Shown here: one piece after another, positions 2,709 through 41,519 of the stretch
Layout: each line of letters starts with the position of its first letter
How positions within the stretch are numbered: position 1 is the first letter of the stretch
From: Proteiniphilum sp. X52
GTDB taxonomy: Bacteria; Bacteroidota; Bacteroidia; Bacteroidales; Dysgonomonadaceae
Length of the DNA: 41,519 bases
Direction: 5' to 3'
Assembly: GCF_003712195.1 (NCBI RefSeq)
Contig: NZ_RDSD01000031.1
Location: 1-41,519, forward strand
The notes under the pieces: model-generated
Databases searched by the model: none
Told to the model about the DNA's origin: nothing
Seen by the model: the letters and a program-made list of their open reading frames with translations, nothing else
Program-made: the position numbers and the translations under genes

Positions 2709-2867
2709 TTATTGTTGCAACTCCAATGGAGGATATTTATATGGATTTTTATGGGATATATAGATAAATGTTTGGTCATTGTAATATCCTAAATAAATGT
2801 TTCTGTTTAAGTTTTCAAGCAAATTGTAATAATCTGTGAAGTTTTTACAATCTCCATATTTTCTATT
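2709..2867 (-). pseudogene. C-terminal fragment of a second GLPGLI-family protein
   Basis: This stretch encodes the tail of a 95-aa chimeric ORF (2709-2996). It aligns by eye with the end of the intact GLPGLI protein upstream (3251-4102): both have a Lys/Glu-rich piece with 'xCKxxxxY', about 30 variable residues, and a terminal Pro-Leu-Glu-Leu/Ile motif ('YPPLELQQ' versus 'IIPLEIEQ'), which is the typical GLPGLI ending. The N-terminal about 230 residues, including the GLPGLI motif and signal peptide, are missing and replaced by transposase sequence. It directly precedes the barrel gene, which is the position a functional partner would occupy. Confidence 0.6.
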
Positions 2868-2903
2868 TTCAGGAGGGGTTATACCTGCACCTTCAACTTG
2901 TTC

Positions 2904-3138
2904 ATAAGCACTCACACTTTCGGCCATTCCCTTCGGGTGCCATTCAACGCCTTTGTTGGCGAAATTGCCAACTAATTCCCGCTTTTTTGTATCCACCGAT
3001 ATTACCGGTTGTCCTTCTGATCAAGCTCTTTCCGCCTCTCCCAAGTGCTTTGGCCTCAGACGCAGCATATATCCGGGCTTGCTCTTCATTCAGGTAAGGA
3101 ATAAATTCCTTCATTTTTTCTATTACCTCTGTTTTCAT
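2904..3138 (-). pseudogene. ISAzo13-family transposase relic
   Basis: Two short pieces of an ISAzo13-type transposase lie here in different frames. The first, from the ATG at 3138, carries the family N-terminus ('LNEEQARIYAASEAKALG' then 'GGKSLIRRTTG'). The second carries the internal 'PVISVDTKKRELVGNF' and 'EWHPKG' signature of the catalytic region. About 200 residues that normally separate these parts are absent, and the join (around 2990-3015) is out of frame. The element is therefore long dead. No terminal inverted repeats could be identified. Family assignment rests on remembered motifs; I am fairly sure of the ISAzo13 call. Confidence 0.65.
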
Positions 3139-4271: not shown

Positions 4272-5822
4272 TTAAATATCCAATTCTGAAATATAACGGA
4301 TATCTTCAATCTTAAAACTATCCGGCAGTTTGTATCCATTTACCAATATTGTCGGCGTGGCCCTTAGCCCCGACTGTTCCTTCCATTGTTCATGCAATTC
4401 AAACTCTCTTGCCACTTCCTGCTCTTCAGTGTCTATCGGATACAGCTTAAAGAATCCCTCTTTATTAAACTTCCCTTTCTCAAACCATTGGTCATAAATG
4501 TCTTTGGCTTCGCCGTTTTTTTGGAAATAAGCCCCGATAAGGAATTTATTGGATATTTCCAGTTCTTTATTGAAAGAGGAAAAAATGTACTGCACACAGA
4601 TATCCTTATTCTGTTCCAACAATCCATTTATACGTAGGTGCATCCGGGAACAGGGATTGCAATGGGGATTTGAAAATACTGTTACCAGCAGGTTTGAGCC
4701 GGTATTTCCCAATAATATCCGGGATGTTTTTGTAGTCACCTCATAGCGGGGTTGTTTCCTTAGTAGCGCGGCAAAGACATCTTCATTGGCCTTTATACTG
4801 TTTATCTCATACTGAATGTTTTCAAGGTTAGTACTCCGGCCAATAATCGGAACAAGTACATTAATAATTAAAATTGATATGACGTATATGCTGCAAGATA
4901 TTGCCAGACCCGAGAAGTTAACCGAGGAAAAACGGGTATATCCAAATACCATTCCGGTGATAAAAATACCCCATAAGAGCAACATGGTTCCTAAACATAA
5001 AGGACACCATTGTTTTGCCTTGAACTTCTGATACCAAATACTCCAAACACTATATGGCAGACAAAAGATATTGATGAAAAGTAAACAGGGAATAAACGAC
5101 GGTAAAAAACAAAGTATAATTGTGTTCGAGATAAAATACCCCATCCCAACCTCACTCCAACTCAAAACACCAAATAGCTTTGCATCATCCGACTCGAGGA
5201 TATTATTGCAATCACTGTATTTGAACAGTGAACATAACCTGTCGGCATAACTGTTTTGGATATGCAGTTGTTTCAAAAGCAACAGATAATCTATATATAT
5301 ACCTGAAAGACTGATTACCAACAATAATAGCAACCCTGGTTGTAAATAGCTTTTATTGGAAATGAAAGCAATAGCAAATAAAAAAATGAGAATTGCAAAA
5401 ATGGCTATTTTCCGCAGAATATTGAATAACTCTTCCCGGAAGTGTATTCCATATTCAGGTTCAACTGAGTTTTGACCAGGTTCTGCAACCAAAATAATGC
5501 CGGTCCATATTTTGAAAAAATCTCCCAATGGAACCTTTATTCTTTTATCCCTTTCGAAAAATTGGATTTCATCCGTGAATATTTTTTCAACGACTACAAA
5601 TTCACTCCCTGTATGGGCAATAAAAGGAGTTTCTATTGAATAGATATCATTCTTGTCCTGAACCCTTATCCCTGCGTTTTCGATACCATAATCAGTAAGC
5701 ATAGAGGAAATTCCGTACAAATTGTATTTGTGAGGGTGCTCGTTGAAGAATCGACTCGAAAAAAAACGCGTATGTTTTATCTTCAACAAATTCAGGAAAG
5801 ATATGGAAATATTACTTCCCAT
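4272..5822 (-). CDS. C39-peptidase-like / vitamin K epoxide reductase (VKOR) / DsbA-like thioredoxin fusion
   Basis: The 516-aa membrane protein has three parts. Residues 1-120 resemble a bacteriocin-processing C39 peptidase fold ('NEHPHKYNLYGISSML') but contain no cysteine at all, so this domain should be catalytically dead and may only bind leader peptides. Residues about 135-330 form a VKOR domain with several membrane helices, a loop Cys pair (C197, C205) and the active CxxC (C273-C276, 'WCPLC'). Residues about 345-516 form a periplasmic thioredoxin/DsbA-like domain with C388-x-x-C391 ('HCNPC') and a cis-Pro at P490 ('ATPT'). VKOR plus a DsbA-like domain is a known disulfide-forming pair, and the C39-like domain ties this type to exported double-glycine peptides. 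No ABC exporter lies beside it. Confidence 0.85.
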   Translation of the reverse strand: MGSNISISFLNLLKIKHTRFFSSRFFNEHPHKYNLYGISSMLTDYGIENAGIRVQDKNDIYSIETPFIAHTGSEFVVVEKIFTDEIQFFERDKRIKVPLGDFFKIWTGIILVAEPGQNSVEPEYGIHFREELFNILRKIAIFAILIFLFAIAFISNKSYLQPGLLLLLVISLSGIYIDYLLLLKQLHIQNSYADRLCSLFKYSDCNNILESDDAKLFGVLSWSEVGMGYFISNTIILCFLPSFIPCLLFINIFCLPYSVWSIWYQKFKAKQWCPLCLGTMLLLWGIFITGMVFGYTRFSSVNFSGLAISCSIYVISILIINVLVPIIGRSTNLENIQYEINSIKANEDVFAALLRKQPRYEVTTKTSRILLGNTGSNLLVTVFSNPHCNPCSRMHLRINGLLEQNKDICVQYIFSSFNKELEISNKFLIGAYFQKNGEAKDIYDQWFEKGKFNKEGFFKLYPIDTEEQEVAREFELHEQWKEQSGLRATPTILVNGYKLPDSFKIEDIRYISELDI

Positions 5823-5903
5823 ACGTCGTATTTCATGTTCTAAAATGTATTAGCTGTTACAAATAAACATTATATTTATTGTCCGGCAAAATAAAATTCT
5901 ATG

Positions 5904-6156
5904 TTATAAAACATAAACTGCCTTACGTTGTTTCGAGGAAAGACTGGTAAATAAATCATCCACGCTTTTCTTGCCTCGACCAGATACAACCTCGATGACC
6001 ACTCCAGCGCGCTCATCTGATAAAATGCTTAAATACTGAGTCCTTTTTTTATTGATTTTTCATCAACGCTCAAATAGGCATAATATTTATCGACATCTCT
6101 TCGTTCTAATCCGCAAGAGACACTCCTTCGCATAATCCTGCTTACCTGCGGGTAAC
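5904..6156 (-). pseudogene. ISL3-family transposase relic (frameshifted)
   Basis: The 334-base gap between the VKOR fusion and the S46 peptidase holds a decayed transposase piece. One frame reads 'SYPQVSRIMRRSVSCGLERR' and then 'YLSVDEKSIKKG', the ISL3 catalytic signature (VDEKSF-like). The reading shifts after KKG and continues in another frame as 'QYLSILSDERAGVVIEVV' plus 'SGRGKKSVDDLF', again ISL3-like. Both the beginning and end of the transposase are missing. The 81 bases between 5823 and 5903 are AT-rich and presumably hold the upstream region of the VKOR gene. Confidence 0.6.
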
Positions 6157-26072: not shown

Positions 26073-28217
26073 TCAAGCGAGCGTAAAATCGAGTTGTTTC
26101 CTGTCGAGATTGGCTCTTGCCACCTGAATGGAAACTGGCTGTCCGAGACGATACTCTCGTCCGGTACGCCGGCCCACTAACCGGAAATTCTTTTCATCCA
26201 GCTCGTAGAAATCATCATCCAACTCGCGGATAGGGATCATGCCCTCACACTTATTCTCATTGATCTCCACATAAATCCCCCATTCTGTCACACCGGAGAC
26301 TACGCCATCGTACACTTTACCGATCTTATCGGCCATGAATTCCACCTGCTTGTATTTGATGGAATCCCGCTCGGCGTTGGCTGCCACCTGCTCCATCTGT
26401 GAGCAGTGCTTGCATTCTTCTTCCAGCGGCCCCTGATCCACACTTTGTCCTCCCCCCAGATAATGTTCCAGCAGACGGTGCACCAGCATATCGGGATATC
26501 TCCGGATAGGGGAAGTAAAATGGGTGTAATAATCGAACGCCAGACCGTAATGTCCCACATTCTTGGTGGAATAGATTGCCTTGGACATAGTCCGGATCGC
26601 GATGGTCTCGATCAGGTTCTCCTCCGGGCGGCCCTGTACCTTATCCAACAGGGAGTTGATACTTTTCGCCACCTCCACTTTCGAGCCGTCGGGTTTTATC
26701 TTATGACCAAAGCGCAGGATAAATGTATTGAATGTCTCCAGTTTTTCCGGATCAGGCACATCGTGTACGCGATAGACAAATGTTTTGGGTCTCTTCCCTT
26801 TGGGTGCCGTGCCGATAAACTCGGCCACGTTTTTGTTGGCCAGCAACATAAACTCCTCAATGAGATGATTGGCTTCCTTCGACTCCTTGAAATATACTCC
26901 CAACGGTTTTCCTTTCTCATCGAGATTAAACTTCACCTCATATCGCTCAAAATTGATGGCACCATTGGCAAACCGCCTCTCACGTAACTGCCTGGCAAGA
27001 TGATGCAATTGGAGTATCTCTGCCGAGAAGTCACCCTTTCCGGTTTCGATCACCGCCTGCGCGTCTTCATAGGTAAGCCGGCTGTCCGACTTGATGACAG
27101 TCCGTACGATCCGTGATTTTTTTATCTCCGCCTTATCGTTCAGGATGAAGATAACCGAAAAGCACAATTTTTCTTCATGAGGACGTAATGAACATATTCC
27201 GTTGCTCAACCGCTCCGGCAGCATGGGAATCGTCCTGTCGACAAGATAAACGGAGGTCGCCCGGTTTTCCGCCTCGCGGTCGATGAGGTCACCCGGTTTC
27301 ACATAATGGGTCACATCGGCAATATGCACTCCCACCTCCCACTGGTTGGACGAGACTTTGCGAAGGGAAAGGGCATCATCGAAATCTTTGGCATCTTTCG
27401 GGTCGATCGTGATGGTGAATACATCCCGAAAGTCTTCCCGTCTGGCAATCTCTGCTCCGTCTATCTCCTCGGGGATCAGATCAGCAAATTTCCCGACCTT
27501 CTCAGGATAGCTGTAGGGCAGGTCATACTGTGCAAGAATGGCATGCATCTCGGTATCGTTATGTCCCGGCTTGCCCAGGACATCGATCACTTTTCCCACC
27601 GGGTTATTGGCTTTTGCAGGCCATTGGGTGATTTCCACCAGCACTTTGTCGCCATTCATGGCACCGTTAAGATCCTCTTTTGGGATAAAAATATCGTTCG
27701 ACAGGAACTTACTATCCATCACTAAAAAAGCGAAGTGCTTCTGCACTTCCAGTATTCCCACAAAACGGCTCTGGGCACGTTCCAGTATCTCTACGACTGT
27801 TCCTTCCGTATCCGCGCGTTTCCGCTTGGCCAACAGTTGCACGCGAACCCTGTCGCCATTCATCGCGTGCTTGCTGTTGCGTTCGGGTATATAAATAATA
27901 TTTCCGTCATCGTCCGGCACAAAGAAATTCTTACCGTTGCTCCGCCTTTCAAAACGTCCTTCCAATATCAATCCCCGGTTGTTGATACGGTATCTGCCGC
28001 GGGATGTCTCTAAAAGCACATCTTCATCGCGGAGCTTGTCGAGCACACTGATCAGCACACGTCGCCCCTCTTCTCCGCGAATATCCAGTCCGGCAGCTAT
28101 TTGTTTATAGTTGAACTGCTTATCATTATTCTGGGAGAGAAAATGGGTCACTAAGGGGATCAACTCCTTTTTTTTGGGTTTAATAACGGAAGGTATAGAT
28201 GTTGTTTTTTTACTCAT
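26073..28217 (-). CDS. rnr: Ribonuclease R
   Basis: The 714-aa 3'-5' exoribonuclease has an N-terminal winged-helix domain (about 15-75), two cold-shock OB domains (about 75-230), and the RNB catalytic domain with the metal-binding aspartates in 'DPKDAKDFDDALSL' and 'HIADVTHYV'. A C-terminal S1 domain follows ('GKVYDGVVSGVTEWGIYVEI'). The Lys-rich tail of the E. coli enzyme is missing, as is usual in Bacteroidetes. First gene of rnr-queG-ruvB. Upstream is the accessory peptide locus. Confidence 0.96.
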   Translation of the reverse strand: MSKKTTSIPSVIKPKKKELIPLVTHFLSQNNDKQFNYKQIAAGLDIRGEEGRRVLISVLDKLRDEDVLLETSRGRYRINNRGLILEGRFERRSNGKNFFVPDDDGNIIYIPERNSKHAMNGDRVRVQLLAKRKRADTEGTVVEILERAQSRFVGILEVQKHFAFLVMDSKFLSNDIFIPKEDLNGAMNGDKVLVEITQWPAKANNPVGKVIDVLGKPGHNDTEMHAILAQYDLPYSYPEKVGKFADLIPEEIDGAEIARREDFRDVFTITIDPKDAKDFDDALSLRKVSSNQWEVGVHIADVTHYVKPGDLIDREAENRATSVYLVDRTIPMLPERLSNGICSLRPHEEKLCFSVIFILNDKAEIKKSRIVRTVIKSDSRLTYEDAQAVIETGKGDFSAEILQLHHLARQLRERRFANGAINFERYEVKFNLDEKGKPLGVYFKESKEANHLIEEFMLLANKNVAEFIGTAPKGKRPKTFVYRVHDVPDPEKLETFNTFILRFGHKIKPDGSKVEVAKSINSLLDKVQGRPEENLIETIAIRTMSKAIYSTKNVGHYGLAFDYYTHFTSPIRRYPDMLVHRLLEHYLGGGQSVDQGPLEEECKHCSQMEQVAANAERDSIKYKQVEFMADKIGKVYDGVVSGVTEWGIYVEINENKCEGMIPIRELDDDFYELDEKNFRLVGRRTGREYRLGQPVSIQVARANLDRKQLDFTLA

Positions 28218-28353
28218 AATTTATTACTTCGGTTTTTACTTAAACAATTCAAACGCGTTTTAGTTAAATACAAAGTAATAAAATATTTATGGAACTTAGA
28301 TACTAATGTGCACCAGTAGTGGATACTGTTCGCGAATTCATTTAGTTAAAATA

Positions 28354-28578
28354 CTAAAATAAGGTATTGATACTGTTCCAAAAATCCATAACTGATATCC
28401 GCTCTTCATGGAAAGAGCCGAAACAAATATTTTCGCCGATTGTCCCGCTGAAAATCTTTGTCTGTTGGCTCACTACGCCTATATATCTACGCCAAAGCGG
28501 AATAGGATATTCCGATAACGGTTTGCTGTTAAATAAAATTTCGCCGCTTTCTATGGTGAGTGAAAGTAGTCTATTCAT
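28354..28578 (-). pseudogene. Fragment of an ABC-transporter ATPase domain (peptide exporter type)
   Basis: The 74-codon frame matches the middle of an exporter nucleotide-binding domain. 'LLSLTIESGEILFNSKPLSE' corresponds to the part just after Walker A, and 'RRYIGVVSQQTKIFSGTIGE' with 'NICFG' is the Q-loop region of ComA/SunT-like exporters. Walker A itself, the signature motif, Walker B, the membrane domain and any C39 peptidase are missing. An in-frame stop lies just upstream of the ATG. The pseudogene therefore cannot export. It sits downstream of the double-glycine peptide genes, behind their terminator, where an exporter gene would be expected. Confidence 0.65.
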
Positions 28579-28590
28579 AGTTTATTTTAT

Positions 28591-28628
28591 AAAAATTGCT
28601 GACACAATTATTATAAACTATGTCAGCA
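28591..28628 (-). terminator. Strong Rho-independent terminator of the peptide locus
   Basis: On the minus strand TGCTGACATAGTT pairs with AATTGTGTCAGCA (13 pairs with two G-T), loop TATAAT, followed by ATTTTTAT. It lies 120 bases beyond the 37-aa frame and would end the peptide transcript before the ABC fragment. Confidence 0.75.
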
Positions 28629-28748
28629 TTCAGTTAAGCAATGAATTCCTTTGTCGAAATGTTTCCATTAGTTATTGTGCGCACACAAACGGCAAACACA
28701 CCTATTCAACAATGCTGAAAAGATAATATTTATATTTTGATAAATCTA

Positions 28749-28862
28749 TCAAAATACATTTTTGCTTTTTAACACACAAAAAACTATGACAATTATACAA
28801 CCAATGCTGAATAACAACAGTTTTTTTGTAGTAAGCTTCGGTGGTCTATAAATTATTCTCAT
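28749..28862 (-). CDS. 37-aa single-membrane-helix peptide downstream of the double-glycine peptide
   Basis: The frame MRIIYRPPKLTTKK, then a hydrophobic helix (about residues 15-30, 'LLLFSIGCIIVIVFCV'), then LKSKNVF begins six bases after the stop of the 58-aa peptide gene and ends in TGA. Basic residues flank one membrane helix. The tight spacing favours co-translation. It could be an immunity-type peptide for the neighbour or the surviving N-terminus of a larger membrane-fusion protein; the sequence does not decide. Too short for certainty. Confidence 0.4.
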   Translation of the reverse strand: MRIIYRPPKLTTKKLLLFSIGCIIVIVFCVLKSKNVF

Positions 28863-28868
28863 ATCCGT

Positions 28869-29045
28869 TTATCTATCCATAGCACTTACCGCACAATCGA
28901 CACAAGCATACAACTCTAAAGCACCCGCTATTGCCAGCACCCCTGTTCCAAGAGCAACAGCGGAAGCAAGACAATAACCGCAAGAAAACCACCTGATTTT
29001 CCCTCCTTGAAGATTTTCCATCTGCTCAAAATTCAACTTTTTCAT
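28869..29045 (-). CDS. Bacteriocin-like peptide with double-glycine leader and two CxxC motifs
   Basis: The 58-aa product starts with a textbook double-glycine leader, MKKLNFEQMENLQGG (residues 1-15), as used by C39-peptidase ABC exporters. The predicted 43-residue core begins KIRWFSCGYCLAS, continues with an Ala/Gly-rich hydrophobic stretch (VALGTGVLAIAGAL) and ends ELYACVDCAVSAMDR. Its four cysteines form two CxxC motifs (C22-C25 and C48-C51), suggesting disulfide cross-links. This is the pattern of class II bacteriocin-like peptides in Bacteroidetes. A 37-aa frame follows immediately, and a divergent XRE regulator lies upstream. The ABC exporter downstream is broken, so export would need a transporter encoded elsewhere. 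Activity is unknown. Confidence 0.75.
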   Translation of the reverse strand: MKKLNFEQMENLQGGKIRWFSCGYCLASAVALGTGVLAIAGALELYACVDCAVSAMDR

Positions 29046-29097
29046 AACTTAAAAATTCCTTAATGTTAGGGATGAATTTTATTTTGGCAAAAAAATC

Positions 29098-29119
29098 CAC
29101 AAAAAAACATTTTTTTGTG
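29098..29119 (-). promoter_or_regulatory. A/T hairpin in the leader of the peptide transcript
   Basis: CACAAAAAAA and TTTTTTTGTG form a perfect 10-pair inverted repeat around CA. It lies 53 bases before the peptide start codon on the minus strand and would be in the mRNA leader. It may be an attenuator-like or stabilising element; function unproven. Confidence 0.35.
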
Positions 29120-29186
29120 AAAATCCTTTGACGATGTAAGATTATCAGTTGTTTTTATATAACCTACCAAAAAATTAGTATTTTTA

Positions 29187-29198
29187 CCAAATATTTGG
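29187..29198. promoter_or_regulatory. Palindrome CCAAATATTTGG, candidate operator for the XRE regulator
   Basis: A perfect 12-base palindrome lies in the 212-base divergent region between the peptide gene and the XRE gene. On the minus strand a TTTG box (29199-29202) adjoins it directly, so a bound repressor would cover the likely -33/-7 spacer of the peptide promoter. The -7 box is only approximate. Inference. Confidence 0.4.
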
Positions 29199-29257
29199 CA
29201 AAGGAGTTAAACCCTTTATAAATAGATTTTTTGTTGTTTCTTGAAAATTATTTCATT

Positions 29258-29605
29258 ATGTCAATAGCCGAAAGACTATTAAATTTAAGAAAGCAAAAGG
29301 GATTAACGCAAGAAGAACTTGCTTGCGACCTTAATATTTCCCAGTCTTCCATTTCAAATTACGAATTGGGGTTGACAAAGCCTGACATTGAAATACTGAA
29401 ACGGTTTGCCGAATATTTCCACATCCCTTTGCACAATCTTCTCTCCGATGAACAATACACCCTTTACAATCACGAAAACAGAGGCGGAAATAATGGCTGT
29501 ATTAACGTGTTTTTCCATGAAAAACTGATCGAGCAATACGAAATCCGCCTCAAAGAAAAAGATGAGGAAATTGCTTTGCTGAAAAGTTTGTTGGAAAAGA
29601 AATAG
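29258..29605 (+). CDS. XRE-family helix-turn-helix regulator with C-terminal coiled coil
   Basis: The start at 29258 gives 115 residues beginning 'MSIAERLLNLRKQKGLTQEE'; a TTG start nine codons upstream is less likely. Residues 4-60 form a Cro/C1-type HTH domain with 'GLTQEELACDLNISQSSISN' and 'YELGLTKPDIEILKRFAEYF'. The tail ('IEQYEIRLKEKDEEIALLKS') is a heptad-like coiled coil that probably mediates dimerisation. It is divergent from the double-glycine peptide gene across a short region with a palindrome, so it most likely regulates that locus. Coding region is low in GC, like the peptide locus. Confidence 0.88.
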   Translation: MSIAERLLNLRKQKGLTQEELACDLNISQSSISNYELGLTKPDIEILKRFAEYFHIPLHNLLSDEQYTLYNHENRGGNNGCINVFFHEKLIEQYEIRLKEKDEEIALLKSLLEKK

Positions 29606-29734
29606 GTGATAACTTTTTCAAGGTAACTCCAATTCGCCTTCGCCTTACGCCGTTCCGTTATTTTTGGCATCAGGCATATTTTCAGGTAAGTTGTTTTTTA
29701 ATAAATCTTATGGCGGCTATCCTAAAGTTATCAT

Positions 29735-29742
29735 TATTTTTG
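29735..29742 (+). promoter_or_regulatory. Bacteroidetes-type -7 element (TATTTTTG) before the epimerase gene
   Basis: TATTTTTG matches TAnnTTTG and lies 19 bases before the start codon. No clear TTTG -33 box is visible. Confidence 0.35.
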
Positions 29743-29761
29743 TGAACCGAAAGAGAAAAGT

Positions 29762-30775
29762 ATGAACGAGAAAAAGATCCTCATCACCGGTGCCAGCGGA
29801 TTTATAGGAAGCAGCGTTGTGGACAAGGCGCTGGAACTGGGATATGAAACCTGGGCAGGAATACGGGCAAGCAGCAGCCGGCAGTACCTGCGGGACGAAC
29901 GTATTCGTTTTATCGACCTGCACTATGGCGATAAAACGAAGTTGAAAGCACAACTCCGCAATTTCACAAATGAGTATGGGCGTTTCGTTGATATCATACA
30001 TATCGCGGGACTGACAAAGGCACGCCGCAAATCGGATTTCGATAAAGTAAATTGGGAATACACCCAAAATTTGGTAGAAGCGCTGATAGAGACGGACAAT
30101 GTTCCCGATTCTTTTGTATTTATGAGCTCCCTCGGAGCCATGGGTCCCGGGGATGAAGTGGGGTATACTCCCATGTGCGCCGATAAGACTCCCACCCCCA
30201 ATACAGCTTACGGGAGGAGCAAACTGAAAGCTGAAAACTGGCTGAAGAGTATCGACGGATTTCCTTACCTGATTCTCCGCCCTACCGGTGTTTACGGCCC
30301 CCGCGACAGGGATTATCTTATCCTGATGAGAGCGGTAAAAAGTGGATTAGACGTGGGAGCAGGTTATAAAAAACAACTCCTCTCGTTTATCTATATCGAA
30401 GATCTGGTAAATATAATTTTCTCCCTGATTGAAAAAGGGATTCGAAGAAAAGAGTATCTCGTCTCCGACGGGGACATCTATACTGACAGTGAATTCAACG
30501 CCATTGTACGGAATGTATTGCATAAGAAGAATGTATTGAGGTTAAAAGTCCCGCTCTTTCTGGTAAAGCCCGCAGCCTTTATAAGTGAAAAAACCGCCGC
30601 TATTTTCGGTAAAGCCACTACCTTTAACAGCGATAAGTATAGGATTATGAAACAACGCAACTGGGCTTGCGAGATTGCTCCATTGAAAGAAGATATCGGT
30701 TTTCAGCCGGTATACAGACTGAAAGAGGGGGTTGAGAAAACCATCGAGTGGTATCGGCAAGAGGGATGGCTCTGA
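29762..30775 (+). CDS. NAD-dependent epimerase/dehydratase (extended SDR)
   Basis: The 337-aa protein is an extended short-chain dehydrogenase. The NAD(P)-binding G10-x-x-G13-x-x-G16 ('LITGASGFIGSSV'), a catalytic Ser in 'VFMSSLGAMG' and Y150-x-x-x-K154 ('TAYGRSKLKAEN') are all present, with 'ILRPTGVYGPRDRDYL' following. It is similar to nucleoside-sugar epimerases or to 3-beta-HSD/dihydroflavonol-reductase-like proteins; substrate unknown. A standalone gene between the XRE locus and the men operon. The C-terminus 'GVEKTIEWYRQEGWL' is complete. Confidence 0.9.
   Translation: MNEKKILITGASGFIGSSVVDKALELGYETWAGIRASSSRQYLRDERIRFIDLHYGDKTKLKAQLRNFTNEYGRFVDIIHIAGLTKARRKSDFDKVNWEYTQNLVEALIETDNVPDSFVFMSSLGAMGPGDEVGYTPMCADKTPTPNTAYGRSKLKAENWLKSIDGFPYLILRPTGVYGPRDRDYLILMRAVKSGLDVGAGYKKQLLSFIYIEDLVNIIFSLIEKGIRRKEYLVSDGDIYTDSEFNAIVRNVLHKKNVLRLKVPLFLVKPAAFISEKTAAIFGKATTFNSDKYRIMKQRNWACEIAPLKEDIGFQPVYRLKEGVEKTIEWYRQEGWL

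Positions 30776-41427: not shown

Positions 41428-41519
<92 letters not shown>

Follow-up and report, generated by a model that had tools for sequence, protein, structure and literature searches.

A compact double-glycine peptide locus with a divergent XRE-family regulator in Proteiniphilum sp. X52: a candidate regulated, bacteroidetocin-like peptide

Introduction

Bacteroidetocins have been proposed as class IIf (PMC6671954, PMC8546649). The available portions of the first report describe leaders of 15-16 aa, cores of 42 aa upward, four cysteines in bacteroidetocins A and B, and a gene region made up of transmembrane (TM) protein, peptide, thiol oxidoreductase, and PCAT exporter genes (PMC6671954). 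Those of the second give core lengths of 42-53 aa, name BamA as the target, note that bacteroidetocins kill their own producers, and leave control of production as future work (PMC8546649). The terms "XRE" and "repressor" do not occur in the available portions of the 2019 main text (PMC6671954), and no regulator of bacteroidetocins was described in the passages of bacteroidetocin-related literature examined, including these two papers. In the accessible parts of the literature on VKOR, C39, and bacteriocins and on double-glycine (GG) leaders in Bacteroidetes, we recognized no description of the locus reported here or of its associated VKOR protein.

We analyzed a stretch of 41,519 nucleotides (the window), which is one whole contig of a 4.43-Mb genome. 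The features considered are listed at the start of the results.

Results

4272 to 5822, minus strand: C39-like/VKOR/thioredoxin protein, 516 aa; covers only positions 45-132 of 133 of the C39 profile; 23 kb from the peptide
28289 to 29709, no strand: low-GC insert between rnr and an epimerase gene; ends approximate
28354 to 28578, minus strand: ABC-transporter ATPase domain remnant; Q-loop region, no Walker A; 74 codons
28597 to 28628, minus strand: intrinsic-terminator-like hairpin; 13-bp stem, 6-nt loop, T-rich tail
28749 to 28862, minus strand: 37-aa single-TM peptide; cationic (+7), hydropathy 2.66; possible immunity or accessory peptide
28869 to 29045, minus strand: 58-aa double-glycine peptide precursor; 15-aa leader and 43-aa core KIRWFSCGYCLASAVALGTGVLAIAGALELYACVDCAVSAMDR, net charge 0, four cysteines
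29083 to 29091, no strand: second putative operator, TTTGSCAAA; 37 bp upstream of the peptide start
29183 to 29202, no strand: putative XRE operator TTTACCAAATATTTGGCAAA; two adjacent 9-bp sites, TTTACCAAA and TTTGGCAAA, enclosing a 12-bp palindrome
29258 to 29605, plus strand: 115-aa XRE-family regulator, divergent from the peptide; HTH_3 at 6.1e-15; charged, coiled-coil-like tail

The initial annotation described a 58-aa frame with a leader and two CxxC motifs, a 37-aa frame beginning six bases past its stop, and a divergent XRE gene upstream across a region with a perfect palindrome; all of these were found as claimed. The leader is MKKLNFEQMENLQGG, and the four core cysteines, in the motifs CGYC and CVDC, are arranged CxxC-22-CxxC. 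Among the window's 122 ATG frames 40-100 aa long, no other has two CxxC motifs. AAGGA lies 11 nt upstream of the start. In 2.7% of simulations, a frame of 37 aa or more opened with ATG within 15 nt, which makes the 37-aa frame weaker evidence; it matched no family in Pfam or PHROGs, and its NCBIfam match fell below the cut-off (12.8 vs 29 bits). The strong terminator that had been claimed is a real hairpin (fold z = -5.06), but it sits about 120 bp past the 37-aa stop and so outside the span first assigned to the locus; 0.8 such sites are expected by chance in the region.

The peptide and regulator lie in an insert of about 1.4 kb that is acquired DNA. GC content in 500-bp windows was 32-37%, compared to 42-54% for those within nearby genes. 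The epimerase gene was present in 38 of 38 other congener genomes, and its locus was obtained from 29 of them. In 26 of these, rnr and the epimerase gene stood back to back, 119-459 bp apart, whereas the distance here is 1544 bp; the remaining 3 (L009, L012, and L025, the last a truncated stretch) had no rnr match. Congener homology ends near 28288 and restarts near 29709. Flanking or terminal repeats of the kind found at transposon ends were looked for around the insert and none were found. The window itself ends in 90 consecutive G (41430-41519), most likely an assembly artefact.

The leader and first part of the core (residues 2-40) resembled TIGR03949, the class IIb bacteriocins of the lactobin A/cerein 7B family, at 20.5 bits, just under the curated cut-off of 21.5; unlike that class, the insert holds no second bacteriocin peptide. 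TIGR04149 scored 15 bits against a cut-off of 25, rising to 20.8 bits in a six-frame search in which two upstream stops were read through. These below-cut-off matches, together with radical-SAM-like genes (by eye) beside other GG peptides of the genome, raise the alternative of a TIGR04149-kind RiPP precursor modified by a radical SAM enzyme encoded elsewhere. We consider this very improbable, as the insert contains no modifying enzyme and the 15-aa leader fits the bacteroidetocin-like group, while a TIGR04149 member in another genome of the order (G182; 33 bits) has a 24-aa leader and another cysteine pattern. A structure model suggested two helices after the leader; it is a poor model (pLDDT 62) and was given little weight.

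Close homologues of the peptide were sought in 60 relatives, with one marginal match only (G002, E 0.038), and no GG-leader frame was among the frames listed there. No match was obtained in the genome contigs, viral contigs, or plasmids searched. The sole phage match was a terminase, and the one match among PDB sequences had an E value of 0.84; neither was useful. In 392 other genomes of the order there were 4 weak matches (E 0.001-0.003 per genome, with about one expected by chance), of which 3 were credible. The fourth, L061, is interrupted by two internal stops, and neither a GG peptide nor an exporter was among the frames listed for its 3 kb; it was rejected.

All 3 credible relatives adjoin bacteroidetocin-type gene sets with a 4-5-TM protein and a thioredoxin-like protein, and 2 of the 3 also have a PCAT. 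The G214 set has two GG peptides, a TM protein (five segments), a thioredoxin-like protein, and a PCAT, and the G322 set has one GG peptide, a TM protein (four segments), a thioredoxin-like protein, and a PCAT. That of G293 comprises five GG peptides, two TM proteins (five segments each), and a thioredoxin-like protein, and the frames listed in 15 kb included no PCAT. TM counts were from hydropathy; the thioredoxin-like assignment came from Pfam for G214 and for a Lutibacter locus (L149) and from a CxxC motif read by eye for G293 and G322. Nine peptide relatives from four genomes all had 15-aa leaders and 2-4 core cysteines, with leader length partly selected for because 3 of the 9 were chosen by GG pattern and not by similarity. 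NCBIfam names just some of the nine, below cut-off. The expectation of homologues with conserved leader and cysteine positions thus held for the leader but not for the core: neither the CxxC/CxxC pattern nor any CxxC occurred in the 9 cores.

Compared with the published description of bacteroidetocins, and not by alignment, the 58-aa peptide has a leader of 15 aa ending in GG (15-16 aa in bacteroidetocins), a mature length of 43 aa (42-53 aa), and four cysteines (at least two, and four in A and B); it also lies in low-GC DNA, and its relatives adjoin TM, thioredoxin-like, and PCAT genes. Unlike bacteroidetocins, it has no such TM protein gene within the insert, no thiol oxidoreductase nearby as in most bacteroidetocin regions (the C39-like/VKOR/thioredoxin protein is distant), and no intact peptidase-exporter, just the ATPase remnant; in addition, it has the divergent XRE with candidate operators. 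Because the peptide features agree and the cluster features do not, we call it bacteroidetocin-like and not a bacteroidetocin.

The initial inventory of the locus missed both the exporter remnant and the thiol-oxidoreductase-type gene at 4272-5822. The remnant matches ABC-exporter ATPases and probably derives from a peptidase-exporter. In a small set of 7 PCATs it was closest to the one from G322 (45% over 60 aa, E 2e-13), a genome that also holds a relative of the 58-aa peptide; G214 gave 37% over 46 aa and the genome's own three PCATs 32-36%, and there was no match to the G182 and Lutibacter PCAT sequences, both partial. The main rival explanation arises here, namely that an acquired bacteroidetocin-like cluster has lost its TM protein, oxidoreductase, and exporter, leaving a decaying peptide and XRE without present function. 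The reduction of the exporter to a 74-codon fragment, the ancillary genes missing from the insert, the restriction of the XRE to the window's own genome among 39 congeners (the other 38 gave no match at E 1e-8), and the absence of peptide, 37-aa frame, and XRE from all 29 other rnr-epimerase stretches are in keeping with such a relic. However, the peptide and XRE frames, AAGGA, the motif sites, and the strong hairpin terminator are all in place, and we judge this explanation unlikely, though less so than the other rivals.

Three full-length PCATs are encoded elsewhere in the genome, which has several peptide-export loci. At two of them (L069 and L041, on contigs C32 and C14), radical-SAM-like genes adjoin more cysteine-bearing GG peptides, and L069 also has a PCAT. 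Another (L044/L046, contig C87) has two adjoining GG-leader frames (by eye), one of 288 aa with Gly/Tyr repeats and an HEHTH motif as in zinc peptidases, possibly an exported enzyme. Similar 81-82 aa frames with just the first part of the C39 peptidase domain, apparently duplicated remnants, were seen at L038 and L039 (contigs C45 and C32).

Full-length orthologues of the XRE were found in G182 (56-60%; L064, L066, and L073, counted as one locus, L073 being a Candidatus Azobacteroides MAG record) and at L074 (50%). In the 392 other genomes of the order there were two matches at E 1e-10, G182 over the full length and G150 over the HTH part. The G182 regulator faces, in divergent orientation, a C39-like/VKOR/thioredoxin gene; next come genes for a Cys-rich GG peptide and a thioredoxin-domain protein, with a PCAT at a greater distance. 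The L074 regulator is likewise divergently arranged, opposite a 53-aa frame beyond which lies a gene for an M50-peptidase-domain protein. The L074 contig is labelled Mycoplasmataceae, bears Bacteroidota-like genes, and is probably misbinned. The viral contigs gave ten XRE matches.

The perfect palindrome, CCAAATATTTGG at 29187-29198, lies in a putative operator with the motif TTTGSCAAA, and on the shared-motif reading it would represent two adjacent operator sites. The best 9-mer common to the three XRE intergenic regions (window, G182, and L074) was TTTGCCAAA, which was matched by 0 of 500 dinucleotide shuffles; pairwise tests were not significant (37, 23, and 24 of 300 shuffles). Both of its copies in the 41.5-kb window lie in this region; two or more per window were common by chance, being seen in 26 of 100 shuffles. 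When 80 XRE relatives were scanned by script, the motif lay at most 350 bp upstream in the two orthologues and in 0 of 78 others, with about 0.3 expected in all; since it was derived with those two orthologues, the scan is a control for the rest and not independent proof. L074 and L149 were read in detail, and L073 via L066. The XRE-like gene near a GG-peptide cluster at L149 was not counted, being not directly divergent and separated by toxin-antitoxin-like frames (by eye), and GG-like frames near L097, L104, and L126 were dismissed by eye as not leader-like. More distant XREs (L168-L170), from 3 of 394 other genomes in a phylum-wide search at E 1e-18, face lipoprotein-like genes, and the motif was absent in 3 of 3. 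Because the palindrome's TTTGSCAAA is common to the intergenic regions of the two closest orthologues, the divergent XRE probably serves as a dedicated regulator. We also looked for control of the genome's exporters through the same operator and saw none: the 20-bp sequence had no copy elsewhere in the genome at up to 2 mismatches, and the three matches at 3 mismatches (reversed control, 1) were on contigs without exporters.

Two further alternatives bear on the regulator. The divergent layout with shared candidate operators, and an XRE C-terminal tail partly conserved with its orthologues, would suit a secreted peptide signal that is sensed and relieves XRE repression rather than acting as a toxin. 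This is improbable, as the tail is short with no ligand-binding domain matched, and the peptide's relatives sit in bacteriocin-type gene sets. The cationic single-TM peptide adjoining an XRE could instead be the toxin of a toxin-antitoxin-like pair under XRE control, and the XRE does match antitoxin-type HTH models below cut-off. That pairing would leave the GG leader unexplained, the XRE is divergent and outside the operon, and Rfam gave zero matches within 28200-29800; of all the alternatives it is the one we find hardest to credit. PHROGs and PADLOC returned HTH-type matches only, confined to the XRE.

The VKOR/thioredoxin gene facing the XRE in G182 is 48% identical to the gene at 4272-5822, and the best XRE and best VKOR/thioredoxin matches in the 392 other genomes of the order are neighbors in G182. 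No GG peptide was found among the frames adjoining the window's own C39-like/VKOR/thioredoxin gene. Elsewhere, a GG peptide with cysteines lay no more than 1.5 kb from such a gene at 5 of 10 places (L154/L066, which is G182, and L156, L159, L161, and L163), and none was seen at L155, L157, L158, L160, or L162; regex flags at L158, L159 (at 2241), and L160 were dropped as they overlap larger genes. An XRE stood beside the gene at 1 of the 10. The 58-aa peptide is like these Bacteroidota cysteine-bearing peptides in that the G182 locus holds orthologues of both the XRE and the VKOR/thioredoxin protein. The window's own VKOR/thioredoxin protein is possibly the disulfide-forming partner of the peptide. 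Transposase-like remnants at 2709-3138 (ISAzo13-type DDE, 25.0 bits, just under the cut-off of 26.9) and 5876-6156 (ISL3-like by eye) flank the C39-like/VKOR/thioredoxin and GLPGLI genes.

Discussion

Support for a regulated, double-glycine, bacteriocin-like peptide, as proposed in the initial annotation, comes from its leader family, from the gene sets of its distant relatives, from the exporter remnant, and from the operator motif shared with the XRE orthologues. The accompanying proposal of an immunity role for the 37-aa peptide was not supported, no homologue being found. To the fuller explanation, an orphaned, XRE-controlled, disulfide-bonded, bacteroidetocin-like peptide using exporters elsewhere in the genome, we assign about an even chance. 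Under this explanation, the peptide encoded in the insert would be class II bacteriocin-like, of the bacteroidetocin kind, unmodified and disulfide-bonded. By binding the TTTGSCAAA sites between the two divergent genes, the XRE would control both the peptide operon and its own expression. On derepression, the precursor would be cut after GG and exported in trans by one of the three full-length PCATs, because its own exporter has been lost. The two CxxC pairs would be oxidized, possibly by the VKOR/thioredoxin protein, and the 37-aa peptide may protect the producer from a product that would kill.

The gene opposite the XRE encodes a peptide here, the VKOR/thioredoxin protein in G182, and an M50-linked peptide at L074. 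From this we would suggest, with considerable doubt, that the XRE and TTTGSCAAA make up a portable switch dedicated to the disulfide GG-peptide systems of Bacteroidota. If true, such a switch would give bacteroidetocin-like toxins a named regulator. Orphan precursors without exporters would escape searches that demand a whole cluster. The locus is compact, with a divergent regulator and defined candidate operators, and it makes the control of bacteroidetocin production testable.
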